A DNA stretch of 41,326 bases from a virus. The notes beneath the pieces were generated by a model that had not been told where the DNA came from, made no database searches, and saw only the letters and a program-made list of their open reading frames with translations. The stretch spans positions 55,560 to 96,885 of IMG/VR virus record IMGVR_UViG_3300030060_003999. The stretch is one strand, 5' to 3'. Below, one piece after another: positions 10,496 through 39,037 of this stretch (position 1 is its first letter; each line of letters starts with the position of its first letter). Position numbers and translations under genes: made by a program.

Positions 10496-10640
10496 AGAAA
10501 CAAGAATATGGAAAGAAGAATATCTTAACCTTGATGTTAAGGTAGCCGAACAAAGGCGAGAATATTGTAAGATTCAAAACATTAGTGGTCGTAAAGACCA
10601 TTACAAAATTTACGAAGAAGCAAAGAGGTTATTCAAATGA
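10479..10640 (+). CDS. 53-aa basic helical protein
   Basis: It begins MREIVKETRIWKEEYL and ends EEAKRLFK: highly charged and probably helical. The start overlaps the end of the zinc-ribbon gene, and the stop overlaps the next ATG as ATGA, so translation is likely coupled on both sides. No family recognised. Confidence 0.65.
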   Translation: MREIVKETRIWKEEYLNLDVKVAEQRREYCKIQNISGRKDHYKIYEEAKRLFK

Positions 10641-11329
10641 ATATATTCGCACTATCAAAATGTCCTGAAGAATCAGCACAACAAATGATTGACAAGCATA
10701 TTGTCAAGATGCCGACAGAAACCTGTCAAATGTTGCATACTAACATTCTTTTTATGAAGTATGTTCAAAAATACGGCAAAGAACCATCTTTGCGTGAACT
10801 TAAGGCTTTTAATGACAAGTGGGGTGGAGGTTTTATGAAGCCAGCCATGCTAAACCACCCCTCAACCATTTGGGCGAGGCAATCTTTGGCTAATTTTGAT
10901 TGGCTTTATCAACATGGTTTGGCTCTTTGTGAAGAATACGCTTATCGTTATGGCAAAGTGCATGGTTCACATAAACGAATCCTTGATTGTAAGTTATCCC
11001 GTAAAGTAGTTGCTAATCATCAATTTCCTACAAACAAATTGACACCAGTATCTATCGCTATGGATGATTCATATAGATTAGACCGTGATGTATTCTATAA
11101 TACTGCTAGAGTTCAATATGGAATTGAATATGATGAATGGGATTTTGTAATAGAATCCTATCGTCATTATTACCGTGAAGGCAAATGGGAATTTGCTGAA
11201 TGGAGAAAAAACAGACAGCCTTTTGATTGGTTTCCGAGTAATTGGTTTGCAATCAAATGGAATAGACGAGCAACGGCATATAATAATGCTCAGCCTAGAA
11301 AATATCCTATGCCACTAATGGAGGAATAA
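10637..11329 (+). CDS. Conserved marine-phage protein, pyrimidine-dimer-glycosylase-like
   Basis: The protein has the pattern I associate with an uncharacterised marine phage family distantly related to T4 endonuclease V: an N-terminal CPEESAQQMIDKHIVKMPTE, then QMLHT, NHPSTIWARQSLANFDWLYQ, ALCEEYAYRYGKVH and a C-terminal YRHYYREGKWEFAEWRKNR. If that link holds, it could act on damaged DNA bases. The catalytic role is not proven by the sequence, and a structural or other DNA-related role is possible. The ATG overlaps the previous stop (ATGA). At 230 residues it is full length for such proteins. Confidence 0.72.
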   Translation: MNIFALSKCPEESAQQMIDKHIVKMPTETCQMLHTNILFMKYVQKYGKEPSLRELKAFNDKWGGGFMKPAMLNHPSTIWARQSLANFDWLYQHGLALCEEYAYRYGKVHGSHKRILDCKLSRKVVANHQFPTNKLTPVSIAMDDSYRLDRDVFYNTARVQYGIEYDEWDFVIESYRHYYREGKWEFAEWRKNRQPFDWFPSNWFAIKWNRRATAYNNAQPRKYPMPLMEE

Positions 11330-19531: not shown

Positions 19532-19855
19532 ATGTTTGAAAAAGAATGGAATAAAATAGCAAAAGAAGTATATAAGAATGCAGTTAATCATGGATTCTGG
19601 AAAGAAGAAGTAAATGATGGAGAAAGAATGGCTTTAATTCATGCCGAGATTAGCGAAGCATTAGAAGCATTAAGAGAGGGTAATCCCTCATCAAATAAGA
19701 TTATGGAATTTACTAATCTTGAAGAAGAATTAGCAGATGCGGTAATTCGTATAATGGATTACGCATTTGGTAAGGATTTAGATATAGCGGGTGCGATTCT
19801 CGCTAAGTTAGAATATAACAAAAGCCGTGAGTTTATGCATGGTAAATCGTTTTAA
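19532..19855 (+). CDS. MazG-like nucleotide pyrophosphohydrolase
   Basis: MazG-type proteins hydrolyse (d)NTPs to monophosphates and pyrophosphate. The fold's metal-binding signatures are visible: HAEISEALEALREG, and after a loop LEEELADAVIRIMDYA (the ExxD pair). The length of 107 is typical for single-domain MazG relatives of viruses. The gene starts four bases after TFB. A role in nucleotide-pool control or in lowering alarmone-like signals fits viral examples. Confidence 0.82.
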   Translation: MFEKEWNKIAKEVYKNAVNHGFWKEEVNDGERMALIHAEISEALEALREGNPSSNKIMEFTNLEEELADAVIRIMDYAFGKDLDIAGAILAKLEYNKSREFMHGKSF

Positions 19856-19868
19856 GGAGAGAATAAAT

Positions 19869-20426
19869 ATGAGAAAAATATTAATTATTGGAGCAGGTGG
19901 AATTGGGTCATTTTTGATTCAGTTCTTAAATAAAGTTGAATTATATGATATTACGGTGGCTGACCCTGATACGGTAGAAACAAAGAATCTACCCTATCAA
20001 AACTTCAAGAGTGGAGATGTTTCTATAAATAAAGCAGTAGTTATGTTTGGGCGTTTTGATTCTGTCAAAAAATGCTCGGAATATCCTATTCTAACTGAAA
20101 AACAAATGAAAGGATATGATTTGATTATCTGTTGTGTGGATAACCTTTCAGTAAGGAGAACCTTATACAACACAAGTCTTAAATGGCTTGACCTAAGAGC
20201 GCAAGGTAGAAACTGTGCGCTTGTGAGTCATAAAGCCGACCCTAAAATGTATGATATGCTTTTAGCAGGTGAAGAAGGCTCATTTAGTTGTCAAGGAGAT
20301 TCATGGGATGGAACAAATACAGGTGTTCAATTCATGCAAATAGCAATTGCAGGAATAGGCGCACAATGGATTCAAAGATATTTCAATGATGAACAAGTAA
20401 AAGAATATATGGTGCTAAATGCATGA
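19869..20426 (+). CDS. E1/ThiF/MoeB-like activating enzyme
   Basis: A Rossmann-type adenylating domain that activates the C-terminus of a ubiquitin-like or sulfur-carrier protein. Visible features: GAGGIGS (residues 8-14), D32 in VADPDTVE, NLPYQNF (40-46), K55, and CCVDN with D91. The usual NLxRQ arginine is replaced by Tyr43. C141 in SFSCQGD is a candidate catalytic cysteine; no paired CxxC zinc motif is seen. The length of 185 is short for ThiF (about 250). The start is the ATG after AAGGAGAGAATAAAT. With the JAMM gene (21562) and the GG-tailed candidate (14457) it suggests a conjugation or thiolation system. Confidence 0.85.
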   Translation: MRKILIIGAGGIGSFLIQFLNKVELYDITVADPDTVETKNLPYQNFKSGDVSINKAVVMFGRFDSVKKCSEYPILTEKQMKGYDLIICCVDNLSVRRTLYNTSLKWLDLRAQGRNCALVSHKADPKMYDMLLAGEEGSFSCQGDSWDGTNTGVQFMQIAIAGIGAQWIQRYFNDEQVKEYMVLNA

Positions 20427-20456: not shown

Positions 20457-21560
20457 ATGAATAATAGATGGACAAAAGAACAAGAAGCATACCTCTTAAT
20501 TAAAAGGGAAGAAAGGATTCCCTATCAAACAATTAGTGAGTTAATGGAAACAAAGTTTGGTATTAAGCGTAGTGCTAACACTATTGCTGCTAAATACGGA
20601 AGCCTTACAAAAGGAGATAAGAAACAAACACGAAAGCCTATCAGTTGGAATGAACGGAAGGTTGATTTCGTTTATAGTTGTCTTTGGAATGGTTTGACTT
20701 TGGATAGAATCAAAGAGGCTTTTGAGGCCGAATTTGATTATAAGTTGAGCAACACACAATTGAAGAATTGTTTGGCAAAGAAGAAGCCTTCGGGTAAAAT
20801 TCAAGCATTGGCTGAAAAGATGCTAAATCCTGAAAAGCCAACCTTTAATCCTCTAAAGGAAGCAAAGAAGGTTGAAGAAGTTGAAGAAGAGAATTGGCGC
20901 ATTGAGCCAGCAACTCGCAAACAACTTCGTTATCTTGCTTCATTGATGAATCCTGATACATACGGAAAAGATTTGTCAAAAATGGCTAAAGGAATGCAGG
21001 GTAATTTTACTAAGGGTGAAGCCTGTGATAAAATTGATGAATTGCTTTCAATCAACGATACAATCATTGAAGAAGAAATTGCTGAAGAAAGACCACGAAA
21101 CATTAGGCCGTTGGTATCTGAGCAACCAACAGATATTGAAGTATTTGTTGAGAAGCATGGTAATCCAAAAACCCGTCATCTTTCAAAGAACGAAAAGAAA
21201 ATGCTACTTGAGTTGAATGAACAAATTAAGAGTCTTGATGAACAAATTCAACCAATTGAATTTACAAGAGAACAAGATATGTATTTGCTTATTAACTGGC
21301 ATACAATGTCAATTGATGAAGCAAGAGAATACTTTGAAATGCCTTATTATCTACTCGCAAAGCGTTTAGAATTGGTGATTGATAGCACAGAACCTTATCA
21401 TATTGACTTACTTATGGAGGCCGCTAAAGCGATTTCAGCCCGTAAGGAACAAGAGGATGCAATCAAGAATATGGGCTACTGGAAGCGCAGGAAACTGCGA
21501 AAACAGGAGAAGAAAGTGGCTAAGTTGGAGAAGAAACTCAAGCGAATGAGAGGTGAATAA
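20457..21560 (+). CDS. 367-aa protein with SANT/Myb-like helix-turn-helix regions
   Basis: The N-terminus, RWTKEQEAYLLIKREERI followed by MIET-type helices and SANTIAAKYGSL, resembles a SANT/Myb-like or sigma-type HTH. A related pattern recurs at FTREQDMYLLINWHTMSIDEA. In the middle, TRKQLRYLASLMNPDTYG matches the C-terminal domain of the 434-aa coiled-coil protein. The C-terminus is Lys/Arg-rich. A DNA-binding role is likely; the target is unknown. The ATG follows GGAAGTGAAAATT, the same leader string as at 14444-14456. It separates the E1-like and JAMM genes. Confidence 0.75.
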   Translation: MNNRWTKEQEAYLLIKREERIPYQTISELMETKFGIKRSANTIAAKYGSLTKGDKKQTRKPISWNERKVDFVYSCLWNGLTLDRIKEAFEAEFDYKLSNTQLKNCLAKKKPSGKIQALAEKMLNPEKPTFNPLKEAKKVEEVEEENWRIEPATRKQLRYLASLMNPDTYGKDLSKMAKGMQGNFTKGEACDKIDELLSINDTIIEEEIAEERPRNIRPLVSEQPTDIEVFVEKHGNPKTRHLSKNEKKMLLELNEQIKSLDEQIQPIEFTREQDMYLLINWHTMSIDEAREYFEMPYYLLAKRLELVIDSTEPYHIDLLMEAAKAISARKEQEDAIKNMGYWKRRKLRKQEKKVAKLEKKLKRMRGE

Positions 21561-21561
21561 A

Positions 21562-22191
21562 ATGGGTAAAAATTGGTCGGCTGATGAATGCACTAAATGT
21601 GGTAATTTGATTTATTATGGAGGAAAAAATCCTTGTTGTGATGAACCTTCTGAAGAAGAAATGCTCCATCATCTTGAAGAATTAGACCGAAAGCGGGAAA
21701 GGGCTGAATTGTATATATTAAATGCATACAATGAAATATTGGAACAACAACTTTCTTCTTGTGCAGGTTCAAAAGAAAATTTAATTGATGTGGCTATGCA
21801 TGATTTAGATTTTCATGCTGCTATTTGGGAGGCTTCAACAGAAATACTACCTGCTTTAGAAGTTCAAGTCGTTATTGATGGTAAGAACAATTGTTTCGTA
21901 ACAACTGGTTCTTCAGGTTATGTTGAATTTGGAATGAAACCTCCTGTTGGTATGACTTTACCGATTAGATGCTGGATTCATACTCATCCATTTGGTTCTG
22001 CCTATTTTAGCGGAACAGACATTAGAACTGTTTCTATTTGGGAAACAAATATGGAATGTGCTTATGTTCTTGGTGGAGAAGGTCATTACGGTTATTGGAA
22101 TCAAACAAATCCAAAACAACTTGAAATTTACAGAAACAAAGATGATGTTGAAAGAATTCAAACTTGGAAAAAGGGAGATGAAGAAGAATGA
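21562..22191 (+). CDS. JAB/MPN+ (JAMM) metallopeptidase
   Basis: The JAMM zinc-protease motif H-x-H-x7-S-x2-D is complete: H140, H142, S150 and D153 in WIHTHPFGSAYFSGTD. Such enzymes cleave after the C-terminal GG of ubiquitin-like proteins or remove them from targets; in tailed phages a JAB domain also occurs in tail-assembly proteins. The N-terminal 30 residues carry a separate Cys cluster (ECTKCGN, NPCC) that may be a zinc ribbon. The start is ATG 21562, two bases after the upstream stop. The E1-like gene lies one gene upstream, which favours a ubiquitin-like pathway over tail assembly. Confidence 0.9.
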   Translation: MGKNWSADECTKCGNLIYYGGKNPCCDEPSEEEMLHHLEELDRKRERAELYILNAYNEILEQQLSSCAGSKENLIDVAMHDLDFHAAIWEASTEILPALEVQVVIDGKNNCFVTTGSSGYVEFGMKPPVGMTLPIRCWIHTHPFGSAYFSGTDIRTVSIWETNMECAYVLGGEGHYGYWNQTNPKQLEIYRNKDDVERIQTWKKGDEEE

Positions 22192-22822: not shown

Positions 22823-22968
22823 ATGCAGAATATGACAAAATAGTTGCAGAATATGACAAAATAGTAGCATTACTTATTGAAAACCATTTTGTTGAGACTA
22901 GTCCTTATGAGACTATCAAGCACTTGATTGAAACACATCAAGATTACAAAGAAGGTGAAGAAGAATGA
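22819..22968 (+). CDS. 49-aa small protein with an internal repeat
   Basis: AEYDKIV is repeated twice in tandem at the N-terminus, followed by an acidic helix and the GEEE tail. ATGA overlaps occur at both ends, and the GGTGAAGAAGA that encodes its tail is also the ribosome site of the GroES-like gene. Confidence 0.62.
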   Translation: MNAEYDKIVAEYDKIVALLIENHFVETSPYETIKHLIETHQDYKEGEEE

Positions 22969-23183
22969 AAGCAGTTGGTGAATATGCAATTGTTGTAATT
23001 GAGAATACAACGAATAGTTCTGGTATTCAAATTAAAAACGATGGAGAAGGCACTTGTATTTCTTGTCCTAAATATCCTGAGATAGAAGGAAAGTCAATTG
23101 TTTTTGATACAAACCAAACTTATGCAGAAGTATCTGGATATATGATTATGCATAGTAGTTTTATTATGGCGGTGATTGAATGA
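22965..23183 (+). CDS. Short GroES-like co-chaperonin
   Basis: At 72 residues it is shorter than GroES (about 97), but it has the same order of beta strands: GEYAIVVIEN, a short SGIQI segment where the mobile loop usually lies, GEGTCISCP, EIEGKSIVFDT, and the end SFIMAVIE, comparable to the ILAIVEA of GroES. It overlaps the downstream group I chaperonin gene by four bases, the arrangement of groES-groEL. It would form the lid of the viral chaperonin chamber. The reduced roof region recalls phage co-chaperonins such as T4 gp31 in principle only. Confidence 0.7.
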   Translation: MKAVGEYAIVVIENTTNSSGIQIKNDGEGTCISCPKYPEIEGKSIVFDTNQTYAEVSGYMIMHSSFIMAVIE

Positions 23184-24691
23184 TTATACAAGGAAAAGAA
23201 GTTAAGCAAAAACTATTACAGGGAATTGATTTAGTTGCTAATACAGTTAAACCAACTTTAGGGCCACAAGCAAAAACAGTTATTTTGCAGAATAACCCTC
23301 CAGTAATTATTAATGACGGAGTAACTATTACAAAGTATATTTCTCATGAAGACCCTTATATTCAAATGGGAATTCAAATGGTTCAAAACTTAGCAAGCCA
23401 AGCACAAGATAAATCGGGAGATGGAACTACTACTGCTTGTATTCTTGCACAGGCTATTTGTCGTGCATTAATAACATTTGATAATGAATCAACCCACACT
23501 ATGAATCAAACTCTTAATGGTCTAAAAGAAATGGTTCTTAATAATTTAGAAAAAAGAACAATTGAAATTGAAGATGGAGATATTCTTAATGTGGCTACTG
23601 TTGCTGCAAATAATGATGCTGAATTAGGAATGCTAATTCAAAAAGCATTAGATGTAGTTGGTAGAGATGGAATTGTAACTGTTGAGGAATCTAATAACTA
23701 TAATACTGAAATGATTCATAGAGAAGGAATGGAAATCCCTGAAGGATATATCAGTCATTTGATGTGTAATAAAGAAGGAGGAACAGTTGAGTTTGATAAT
23801 CCACTTATCTTTATGTCTAATATTCCTTTCAGGGCATTTAAGGATATACTACCCATGCTTGAGTATTCTTCTTCACAGGGAAGACCTCTATTGATTCTTT
23901 GTAAAGGTATGGAGTCTAATGCTCTAAATAATCTTGTAATGAATCTAATTAACAAGACTGTTGAATGTGCGGTAATTCTTGCACCAAACTTCGGTGATGC
24001 TCAAATTGATGAATTAGGCGACCTTCAATCTTTGTTAGGTGGTAAAGTATTTAATCACGAAAGTAAAGATGATGCTACAAGTATTGTGGCAGGAGATTTT
24101 GGAACTTGTTCAAAAGTTGTAATTACAAAGGAAAAAACAACATTTGTTGGCGGTGAAGGAAATACTGATGCTAGAATTAAAACTCTTAAAGAAGTGGCTG
24201 AAACCATGAAAGGATATGATTTGGGAAGAATAAAGTCCCGTATTTCAAGACTTAAAGGCGGAGTAGCGACAATTAAGGTTGGTGCTTCTTCTTCTATGGA
24301 AATGAGAGAAACTAAAGAAAGACTTGATGATGCTTTAAATGCTACAAAAGCAGCATTAGAATCAGGTATTGTTCTTGGTGGTGGAATGACTTTATTTGAT
24401 ATTGCTAATGATGAAAACATACCTGCATGGTTTGGTAATGCTTTAATCAAACCCTTTGAGGTATTGAAAGAAAATGGAGGCTTTAAGCAAGATTCTTTGA
24501 ACAAAAAGATTAAGTCCTTGAGAAAGGATAATCCAAACATGGGGTATAATGCATTGACTAATCATTATGGTGATTTAAGCGAAGCAGGAGTATATGACCC
24601 AGTTAAAGTAACTGCAAATAGTTTCTTAGCCGCTATGTCTATTTCTCAGTTGTTTTATTCAACAGAAGTTGCAGTATTAGTGGAGGAATGA
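23180..24691 (+). CDS. groL: Group I (GroEL-type) chaperonin
   Basis: An ATP-dependent protein-folding chamber subunit. It follows bacterial GroEL rather than the archaeal thermosome: LVANTVKPTLGPQAK, NDGVTITKYI, SGDGTTTACILAQAI, VGRDGIVTVEES, the apical PLLILCKGMESNALNNLV and APNFGDAQIDELGDLQ, then RLKGGVATIKVGA and VLGGGMTLF. The length of 503 compares with about 548 for GroEL; there is no Gly/Met tail. It overlaps the GroES-like gene upstream. Group I chaperonins are bacterial, but some archaea have acquired them. The viral version may fold capsid or replication proteins. Confidence 0.93.
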   Translation: MIIQGKEVKQKLLQGIDLVANTVKPTLGPQAKTVILQNNPPVIINDGVTITKYISHEDPYIQMGIQMVQNLASQAQDKSGDGTTTACILAQAICRALITFDNESTHTMNQTLNGLKEMVLNNLEKRTIEIEDGDILNVATVAANNDAELGMLIQKALDVVGRDGIVTVEESNNYNTEMIHREGMEIPEGYISHLMCNKEGGTVEFDNPLIFMSNIPFRAFKDILPMLEYSSSQGRPLLILCKGMESNALNNLVMNLINKTVECAVILAPNFGDAQIDELGDLQSLLGGKVFNHESKDDATSIVAGDFGTCSKVVITKEKTTFVGGEGNTDARIKTLKEVAETMKGYDLGRIKSRISRLKGGVATIKVGASSSMEMRETKERLDDALNATKAALESGIVLGGGMTLFDIANDENIPAWFGNALIKPFEVLKENGGFKQDSLNKKIKSLRKDNPNMGYNALTNHYGDLSEAGVYDPVKVTANSFLAAMSISQLFYSTEVAVLVEE

Positions 24692-35691: not shown

Positions 35692-37320
35692 ATGATAATT
35701 AACAAGATGAAAGATGGTAAAACTATTTACAAATCATGGAGAGAAAACAATGAAAAGAAATTTGAATTGGTTGAGTTTCAACCGTATTTCTATGTGGATG
35801 AAGAATCCCATGAACCGCCAGCGTATAATGCTTCTAAATATATTACTAGAGAGTTTAGTTATGTTCGTGGTGATTGGGTTAATCTTATTAAAAATCCTCT
35901 AAAGAAGGTTCTTGTTGATTCAGCAAATGATATTAGAGAAGCAAAGAAGATATTCGGCAAAACCTATGAAGCAGATGTTCCTTTACACTTTAGATACTGT
36001 GTAGATGAATTAGATGAAATGCCTGAATATAATATGCGTAAATGGTATTGGGATATGGAATGGCAACAAGGCGGAGAATATCACGACCAATTGACTACAA
36101 TTGTTGTTTATGATAACTATGATAAAGAATACTATCAATGGGCGTGGTTTCCTGATTATGAAGGAGATGAAGAATATCGTTTTGATAATGAAAAAGATAT
36201 GATAGAGTCTTTTATGACTACAATGATTGTAAAAGACCCAGATATGTTAATTGCTTGGTTTGGTAATTTTGCTGATATTCCTAAACTTTTAGAAAGAGCG
36301 TGTGCAGTAGGTTTGAATCCCTGCGTTATGTCACCTATTGGTTATGTTAAAGGTATTAAAAAGACAAAGGAAGGATTTTCTTTTGCTTATGCGGAGAATG
36401 GATTTAATCCTATTGAACAACCTATTGGTGGGCGAATTACTCTTTCTTTAGACCTTGCATTTGAAAGACAATGGAATGACTCTCAAAGAGGAACATTACC
36501 ATCAATGGCTTTAGATTACATAGGTGAAATGGTTCTCGGTAAAAAGAAATTAGTGTCGGAAAAGTTTCCTGATACAAATGAATTTTATCGTCGTGCTTGG
36601 TTAGAAGATACAGAAACTTATCTTGAGTATGCTCTAAAAGATGTTGAATTGATTGTTGAAATAGATGAAACAAACTTTTGTAGTGAGGCTATTCTTTCTT
36701 TACAAAGATTACTAAAAGCACCATTTGATGCTTGTTTTTATGCAAGTCATATGGGTTCTATTTACTTTATGCGTAATGCTGAGTGGAAAGCACCAACAGG
36801 AAGTAAAGTAGATAAAAGAGAAGAATATGAAGGTGCTATGATTTATGACCCATTAAGTGAAGGAACAAATGGATTACATCTTAATGTTGCTGCTTTTGAT
36901 TTTGCAGGTCTATATCCTAGTATGATGATTGCTCGTAATATCAGTTGGGAAACAATTAGTGAAGAACCAACAGAATTTGCGGTAAATATTCTAACACCGA
37001 GAGATTTCAGCGAAACTACTAGACAACATATGTTATATTTTAAAACGGATGAACTGGGTTTATTGCCAAGAGCAGTATTGGAACTCAAGGAGTTGCGAAA
37101 CGAATATAAGCGACTTATGAGAGATGCAAGAGGAACGGGCGAATATGCAAAGTGGTATAACAATCAAATGGCAGTAAAGCGATTAATGGCTTCTTTTTAT
37201 GGTATTGTTGCTTTTCAAGGATTTGGTTGGGCTAATGTCAATTTAGCCGCATCAATTACTGCAAGTGCAAGAGAAGCAATTAGATTAGCAGCATTTAAGG
37301 CAAAGGAGATGGAAGTATGA
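35692..37320 (+). CDS. polB: Family B DNA polymerase, N-terminal part (exonuclease, motifs A and B)
   Basis: It carries the 3'-5' exonuclease and most of the polymerase domain. Exo I is WDME (D121, E123), Exo II resembles AWFGNFADIP, Exo III YALKDVEL. Polymerase motif A is FDFAGLYPSMM (D403) and motif B KRLMASFYG (K496 to G504), with Ala where Asn is usual. The frame then ends after EAIRLAAFKAKEMEV. Motif C is absent and is found instead at the start of a separate gene at 38144. The two pieces together (542 + 297 residues) make a normal-sized enzyme, and no intein sequence is present. Confidence 0.93.
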   Translation: MIINKMKDGKTIYKSWRENNEKKFELVEFQPYFYVDEESHEPPAYNASKYITREFSYVRGDWVNLIKNPLKKVLVDSANDIREAKKIFGKTYEADVPLHFRYCVDELDEMPEYNMRKWYWDMEWQQGGEYHDQLTTIVVYDNYDKEYYQWAWFPDYEGDEEYRFDNEKDMIESFMTTMIVKDPDMLIAWFGNFADIPKLLERACAVGLNPCVMSPIGYVKGIKKTKEGFSFAYAENGFNPIEQPIGGRITLSLDLAFERQWNDSQRGTLPSMALDYIGEMVLGKKKLVSEKFPDTNEFYRRAWLEDTETYLEYALKDVELIVEIDETNFCSEAILSLQRLLKAPFDACFYASHMGSIYFMRNAEWKAPTGSKVDKREEYEGAMIYDPLSEGTNGLHLNVAAFDFAGLYPSMMIARNISWETISEEPTEFAVNILTPRDFSETTRQHMLYFKTDELGLLPRAVLELKELRNEYKRLMRDARGTGEYAKWYNNQMAVKRLMASFYGIVAFQGFGWANVNLAASITASAREAIRLAAFKAKEMEV

Positions 37321-37941: not shown

Positions 37942-38138
37942 AAGAAGAAATTAAAGAATTAAAAAGAGAAATTAAAGCACTTAAGCAAAGAATTAGCGGT
38001 TTGGAAAAAGACTTAGATTATCAAGTTGAGCAGAATAGCACCAATGGTAAAATGTCAAATGATATAAGAGATTTACAACAAGCAGTTGCCGATTTAGCAA
38101 AAGAACCAGTTGGAATGATGTTTGATTACCGAGCGTGA
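37938..38138 (+). CDS. 66-aa coiled-coil protein between the polymerase halves
   Basis: IKELKREIKALKQRISGLEKDL is a clear heptad coiled coil, followed by a second helix, IRDLQQAVADLAKE. It ends five bases before the ATG of the polymerase C-terminal part. It may be an oligomerisation module; whether it bridges the two polymerase parts is unknown. Confidence 0.68.
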   Translation: MKEEIKELKREIKALKQRISGLEKDLDYQVEQNSTNGKMSNDIRDLQQAVADLAKEPVGMMFDYRA

Positions 38139-38143
38139 ATAAT

Positions 38144-39037
38144 ATGAAAGTAGTTTATGGACATACCGATTCTATCTATGTGCAAATTGATTCCGTAGAA
38201 ACTGCTCAAAAAGCGATTAAAGAAATTGAAGCATCAGTAAGGGAACACTTTCCTAATGTAATGGGATTAGATGAACACCCAGTAGTATTAGAATTTGAAA
38301 AGTATTTTTCAGCATTAGGTGTAGGAACAACCAAAAACAGAAATGCAGGGTTAGTATCTTGGGATGATGGAGAATGGTTAAAAGAACCAAAGTTCACTAT
38401 GACTGGTTTTACTGCTAAAAGAGTGAGCGAAACTAAACTAGCCAAAGAAGTTCAAACTAATACTCTTCAAATGTGGGTTCAACAGAAAACTCAAGCAGAA
38501 ATAAACAAGTATCTTTTTGACACATATCAAAAGGTCTTAACTGGACAAATAGATTTAAAATCAATCATTAAAAGAAGCCGACTACGCCCTGCTAGATTCA
38601 CAGTAAAATGCCCAGAATGTAAAACTAAATATCATCTTAGAGAATGTTTAGAGTTGAAACATTCTGTTTGTAAAAAATGTTCAACAGAAACAAAGCATTT
38701 TACTACTATGGAAGGAAAAAGACCGTCAATTGGTTCAGGAATTGCTGGTGTTTTATATGCTTGGCAGGAAAATGACACTAATTTTGATGATTCTTATTTA
38801 TTTATTAAAGTAATGGGCTTTTGTAATTCATTTATTCATCCTTTGACTCAAGAAAAGAAAGATGTTGAATACATATCGGGCATAACCAATGAAGATTTCA
38901 AAGGTTATACTCCCGATTGGAAGCACTACGCTGAACAAGTAGTAAAGAAAGCCGAACCTATTTACAAGGCTATGGGTTGGGATATATCGTCTATCCGCAC
39001 AGGATATACACAACAAAGCCTTGATGAATGGTGGTAA
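38144..39037 (+). CDS. polB: Family B DNA polymerase, C-terminal part (motif C, thumb, PIP box)
   Basis: It begins with polymerase motif C, VVYGHTDSIYV (canonical YGDTDS; the catalytic second Asp is D9, the first is His7). The join with the N-terminal part is seamless: no conserved residues are missing. FTMTGFTAKRVSETKLAKEVQ corresponds to the palm/thumb border. An insertion with C156, C159, C176 and C179 forms a zinc ribbon not usual at this place. The C-terminus QQSLDEWW matches a PIP box (Q290, L293, W296, W297). The start is probably ATG 38144; the ribosome site is weak, so expression may depend on coupling. Confidence 0.9.
   Translation: MKVVYGHTDSIYVQIDSVETAQKAIKEIEASVREHFPNVMGLDEHPVVLEFEKYFSALGVGTTKNRNAGLVSWDDGEWLKEPKFTMTGFTAKRVSETKLAKEVQTNTLQMWVQQKTQAEINKYLFDTYQKVLTGQIDLKSIIKRSRLRPARFTVKCPECKTKYHLRECLELKHSVCKKCSTETKHFTTMEGKRPSIGSGIAGVLYAWQENDTNFDDSYLFIKVMGFCNSFIHPLTQEKKDVEYISGITNEDFKGYTPDWKHYAEQVVKKAEPIYKAMGWDISSIRTGYTQQSLDEWW

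Follow-up and report, generated by a model that had tools for sequence, protein, structure and literature searches.

Chaperonins are encoded by 38 of 58 genomes of MGII viruses; those of clade 1 are thermosomes, and in clades 2–4 a group I GroEL is present in 20 genomes and groups with MGII chaperonins (Nishimura et al. 2017, PMC5332604). The ICTV profile of the Aoguangviridae (2023) names both GroEL and GroES (PMC10768690). Given these two accounts, the finding of a viral GroEL/GroES is already known. Among bacteriophages, T4 supplies the co-chaperonin gp31, through which GroEL is brought to fold the major capsid protein (PMC6318259), and Pseudomonas phage EL encodes a GroEL relative of its own (gp146), which prevents aggregation without GroES and shows no interaction with the GroES of E. 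coli (PMC7185714). The EL protein is far more divergent than the magrovirus GroEL. The locus described here adds a short GroES conserved beside GroEL, homology of this protein to host GroES over its full length, and a GroEL clade shared with the host class. Least documented are the lid's length and its fold, and we found no discussion of either in the magrovirus accounts or in a wider literature search.

The DNA analyzed (the window, 41,326 nucleotides) spans bases 55,560–96,885 of a 96,885-base (96.9 kb) virus genome from IMG/VR (IMGVR_UViG_3300030060_003999). It encodes an ATP-dependent ligase, an RFC small subunit, a class II ribonucleotide reductase and a DNA polymerase B (PolB) divided into N-terminal and C-terminal ORFs (35692–37320 and 38135–39037) with small ORFs between them. 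A TFIIB zinc ribbon match scores under the model's cut-off. The large terminase, portal, head maturation protease and tape-measure protein are encoded elsewhere in the source record. The preliminary description, made from the letters of the window, had spoken of a virus with archaeal replication genes, and the archaeal-type ligase, RFC and split PolB agree with this. A split PolB has been published for magroviruses, as has the same gene plan of tailed-virus structural genes, archaeal-type replisome and split PolB (PMC10768690). Judged by its gene content, the virus belongs to the magroviruses (Aoguangviridae; MGII-virus clades 2–4), which are of the same kind (90–100 kb, split PolB, archaeal-type replisome) and carry the same gene pair; we found no difference of principle between the published magrovirus GroEL/GroES and the pair in the window. 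Marine Poseidoniia (Marine Group II) are the presumed hosts, with any assignment at the species level made by inference. A search of the whole source record returned no second chaperonin. The window also contains a ThiF (E1-like) gene (19827–20426) close to a JAB protease-like gene (21553–22191), the latter immediately preceding the chaperonin region in many relatives, and a pyrimidine dimer DNA glycosylase-like gene (10637–11329; Pfam Pyr_excise, 5.2e-9).

The larger gene of the pair (23180–24691, + strand) encodes a GroEL of 503 amino acids, as judged from NCBIfam, PHROG and Pfam matches, sequence and fold matches in the PDB, the tree and dN/dS. The NCBIfam GroEL subfamily model NF009487 matches residues 5–500 at 1.7e-122, above its cut-off, and GroEL models overall reach 1e-116 to 1e-122 across this span. 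The protein scores above the curated cut-offs of two subfamilies (NF009487 and NF000592) and below that of the equivalog TIGR02348 (400 of 582 bits). PHROG 5725 (GroEL) matches at 1.7e-110, and among solved structures the best sequence matches are group I without exception. The thermosome alpha model covers only residues 4–142 at 3e-13, well short of its cut-off, which led us to reject the protein as a thermosome (∼1e-13 over partial length versus 1.7e-122 for GroEL over the full length). In an AlphaFold2 model of the protein (pLDDT 79.5), all 50 Foldseek matches listed are GroEL/Hsp60, with TM scores of up to 0.87. These comparisons confirm, at the level of sequence, a full-length group I chaperonin, which follows GroEL and not the thermosome end to end, as had been proposed.

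The ATPase motifs align with those of bacterial GroEL (NDGVTIT, containing D46; GDGTTTA, containing D81; and DDALNATKAALESGIVLGGG, containing D384), and the three aspartates correspond to acidic positions that are invariant in the bacterial GroEL alignment. The apical region (residues 182–365) aligns to positions 4–192 of isolated GroEL apical domains and lacks a large insert, so the viral protein has no helical protrusion of the kind that serves as a built-in lid; a lid gene lies directly upstream. Most hydrophobic positions of the apical face are kept. Across the aligned span, the viral GroEL lacks ∼20–25 residues relative to bacterial and archaeal GroEL, and part of this shortening is a stretch of the equatorial domain following the GGGM motif. 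A dN/dS of about 0.13 (NG86, compared with close viral relatives) indicates that the gene is under purifying selection.

The smaller gene (22965–23183, + strand) encodes 72 amino acids, and we assign it as a short GroES, the co-chaperonin lid, from a family alignment, Cpn10 matches, hhalign, an AlphaFold2 fold and its conservation. Taken alone, the protein has no Cpn10 match, and single-sequence searches of Pfam, PHROGs, the PDB and phages gave nothing useful; weak matches to CDtoxinA (0.082) and PsbO (0.43) were taken as chance. In the alignment of the viral family, 3 of 13 members match Pfam Cpn10 (best E 0.0037). When compared by hhalign with GroES from host-lineage archaea and phages, the viral GroES aligns over its full length (75 columns) with a probability of 95% and an E value of 2.4e-8, and a second comparison of the family alignment with a GroES alignment gave 94% and 1.4e-7. 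As a control for the profile comparison, reversed sequences yielded 1 value below 1e-3 versus 28 of 68 for the real sequences. The AlphaFold2 model (pLDDT 85.6) has the fold of GroES rather than an unrelated one: the best 24 Foldseek matches are all GroES, Hsp10 or gp31 (probability 1.00 to GroES), and VIA-align superimposes 70 residues on the GroES fold at 1.9 Å with a Z-score of 8.9, GroES-like oxidoreductase domains beginning at Z 6.0. Profile and fold evidence together suggest a divergent relative of GroES, not a curated Cpn10 member, which upholds the earlier view of a shortened GroES-like partner.

Comparison with GroES from the host lineage (88–90 amino acids) places the residues missing from the viral protein in the mobile loop and in small turns, with a further loss in the roof region; host and some phage GroES proteins already lack ∼9 roof residues of the 98-residue form. 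At the place expected for the hydrophobic tripeptide of the mobile loop stands an SGIQIK or SGI motif; compared with host GroES, the loop has lost ∼7 residues, and residues 11–30 are modeled with low pLDDT. T4 gp31 is likewise a viral co-chaperonin with the GroES fold, and its roof loop is absent (PMC6318259), whereas that of the magrovirus protein is shortened; gp31 is however longer (12 kDa, with a longer mobile loop) and uses the GroEL of its host, whereas the magrovirus encodes its own. The viral GroES has a dN/dS of 0.42–0.70 (NG86, from only 216 bases) versus 0.13 for GroEL, pointing to weaker constraint.

The two ORFs share four bases (ATGA, 23180–23183, + strand) in which the GroES stop overlaps the GroEL start, as had been noted before, an arrangement from which translational coupling may be inferred. 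A four-base overlap recurs in related loci (L002, L003, L004, L008, L013, L016 and L019), reading TTGA in L002 and L003. Of 103 related viral loci, 96 have a GroES of 68–82 amino acids, its exact start codon uncertain in a few cases, next to GroEL or in its vicinity; because the same pair recurs so often, the pairing is not due to chance. Most of the 7 loci that lack GroES are on contigs beginning near, or within, GroEL. In some relatives (L010, L011, L017 and L020), small ORFs, most of them cysteine-rich and zinc-finger-like, separate groES from groEL.

We located GroEL in 24 of 389 Thermoplasmatota genomes drawn across the phylum; in one marine Thermoplasmatota class, 42 of 194 genomes have it. 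The 22 GroEL-positive genomes tested (21 of this class and G001) all contain GroES as well, near GroEL by their listed coordinates. We interpret the class as Poseidoniia on account of its phylum, its small genomes, the rhodopsins encoded by 12 of 21 of them, and the report of both chaperonin groups in MGII genomes (Nishimura et al. 2017, PMC5332604). The occurrence of GroEL/GroES in the host class, taken with the MGII report, means that a group I pairing is not foreign to the host lineage. These archaea share with the virus the group I pair, the groES-groEL order and the nearest GroEL clade; their GroEL is ∼40% identical and measures ∼525 amino acids over the aligned span, and both viral proteins are shorter than their host-lineage counterparts. 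Similarity of a tRNA-Leu was discarded as a host link, being unspecific (173 of 194 genomes match, the best listed at ∼74–93% identity). The Thermoplasmatota metagenome-assembled genome G001, initially taken as a host proxy, has a GroEL (L196) that groups with that of a Sumerlaeota bacterium and would represent contamination or a separate transfer; G001 was used solely to gain entry to the phylum.

In a tree of 53 proteins, the viral GroELs form one clade (support 100/100), and together with the host-class GroELs they are split from all others (100/99), other archaeal group I GroELs coming next. The viral clade adjoins group I GroEL, and no placement within group II chaperonins was seen. Outside the viruses, identity is highest to the host class (37–41%), compared with 34–37% for the closest bacteria and 24–36% for phages. 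The viral branch is long (1.2–1.9 changes per column), so the exact position of the root is unsure, and the host-class group itself has a support of only 71/65. The tree suggests that the host-class GroELs are the nearest cellular relatives, with the viral clade inside or beside their group, and transfer may have run in either direction. Group I chaperonins are ultimately bacterial, and GroEL is encoded by many marine phages, some of which also carry GroES; the pair could on these grounds have come straight from a bacterium or bacteriophage, without involvement of the archaeal host. We consider this highly improbable: the viral and host-class GroELs share one side of a branch supported at 100/99, identity to the host class exceeds that to bacteria and phages, and an AU test rejects a clade of viral and bacteriophage GroEL (p = 0.0004). 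Among the origins offered in the preliminary description, a host with a group I chaperonin therefore fits best and a grouping with bacteriophages does not stand; as the viral GroEL groups with the host class instead, no direct acquisition from bacteria or phages need be assumed.

Taken together, the magrovirus groES-groEL unit, a relative of the host lineage's group I chaperonin, is probably the virus's own folding chamber. By analogy with GroEL/GroES and gp31, we expect the viral GroEL to assemble into a seven-fold ring that is driven by ATP and has a hydrophobic apical face, with the 72-residue protein binding it as a heptameric lid. The pair would act as a viral Anfinsen cage during infection, its substrates most likely being abundant virion or replication proteins, and a chamber of its own would free the virus from the amount and specificity of the host chaperonin. 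It may also answer the need, raised in the preliminary description, to fold viral proteins independently of the thermosome. The very small size of the viral GroES and its higher rate of evolution compared with GroEL would also suit a GroEL working mainly lid-free, in the manner of the phage EL chaperonin, with the 72-residue protein having drifted to another role. This appears quite unlikely to us, since nearly all loci (96/103) retain the lid gene close to GroEL, its product retains the predicted GroES fold and the hydrophobic positions of the GroEL apical face are largely conserved. Some members of the host class have a GroEL, and gp31 redirects the host protein in T4 (PMC6318259), so that the short GroES might be an adaptor also redirecting host GroEL and not specific to the viral one; we regard this as unlikely, given that the virus has its own GroEL and that only 42 of the 194 host-class genomes contain the gene. 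A dedicated chamber for viral protein folding, comparable in purpose to T4 gp31, is the most likely role. It is conceivable, and we suggest it tentatively, that no working GroES known is smaller than the magroviral one (68–82 amino acids): open, with most of the roof missing and a reduced mobile loop, this lid would be specific to the co-encoded GroEL, providing a private chamber alongside the host thermosome and, where present, host GroEL.

Our analysis confirms a bacterial-type folding machine in a large group of archaeal viruses and places the closest cellular relatives of this machine in the presumed host lineage rather than among bacteriophages. Its consistently short lid offers a clear, testable case of how small a GroES can become.
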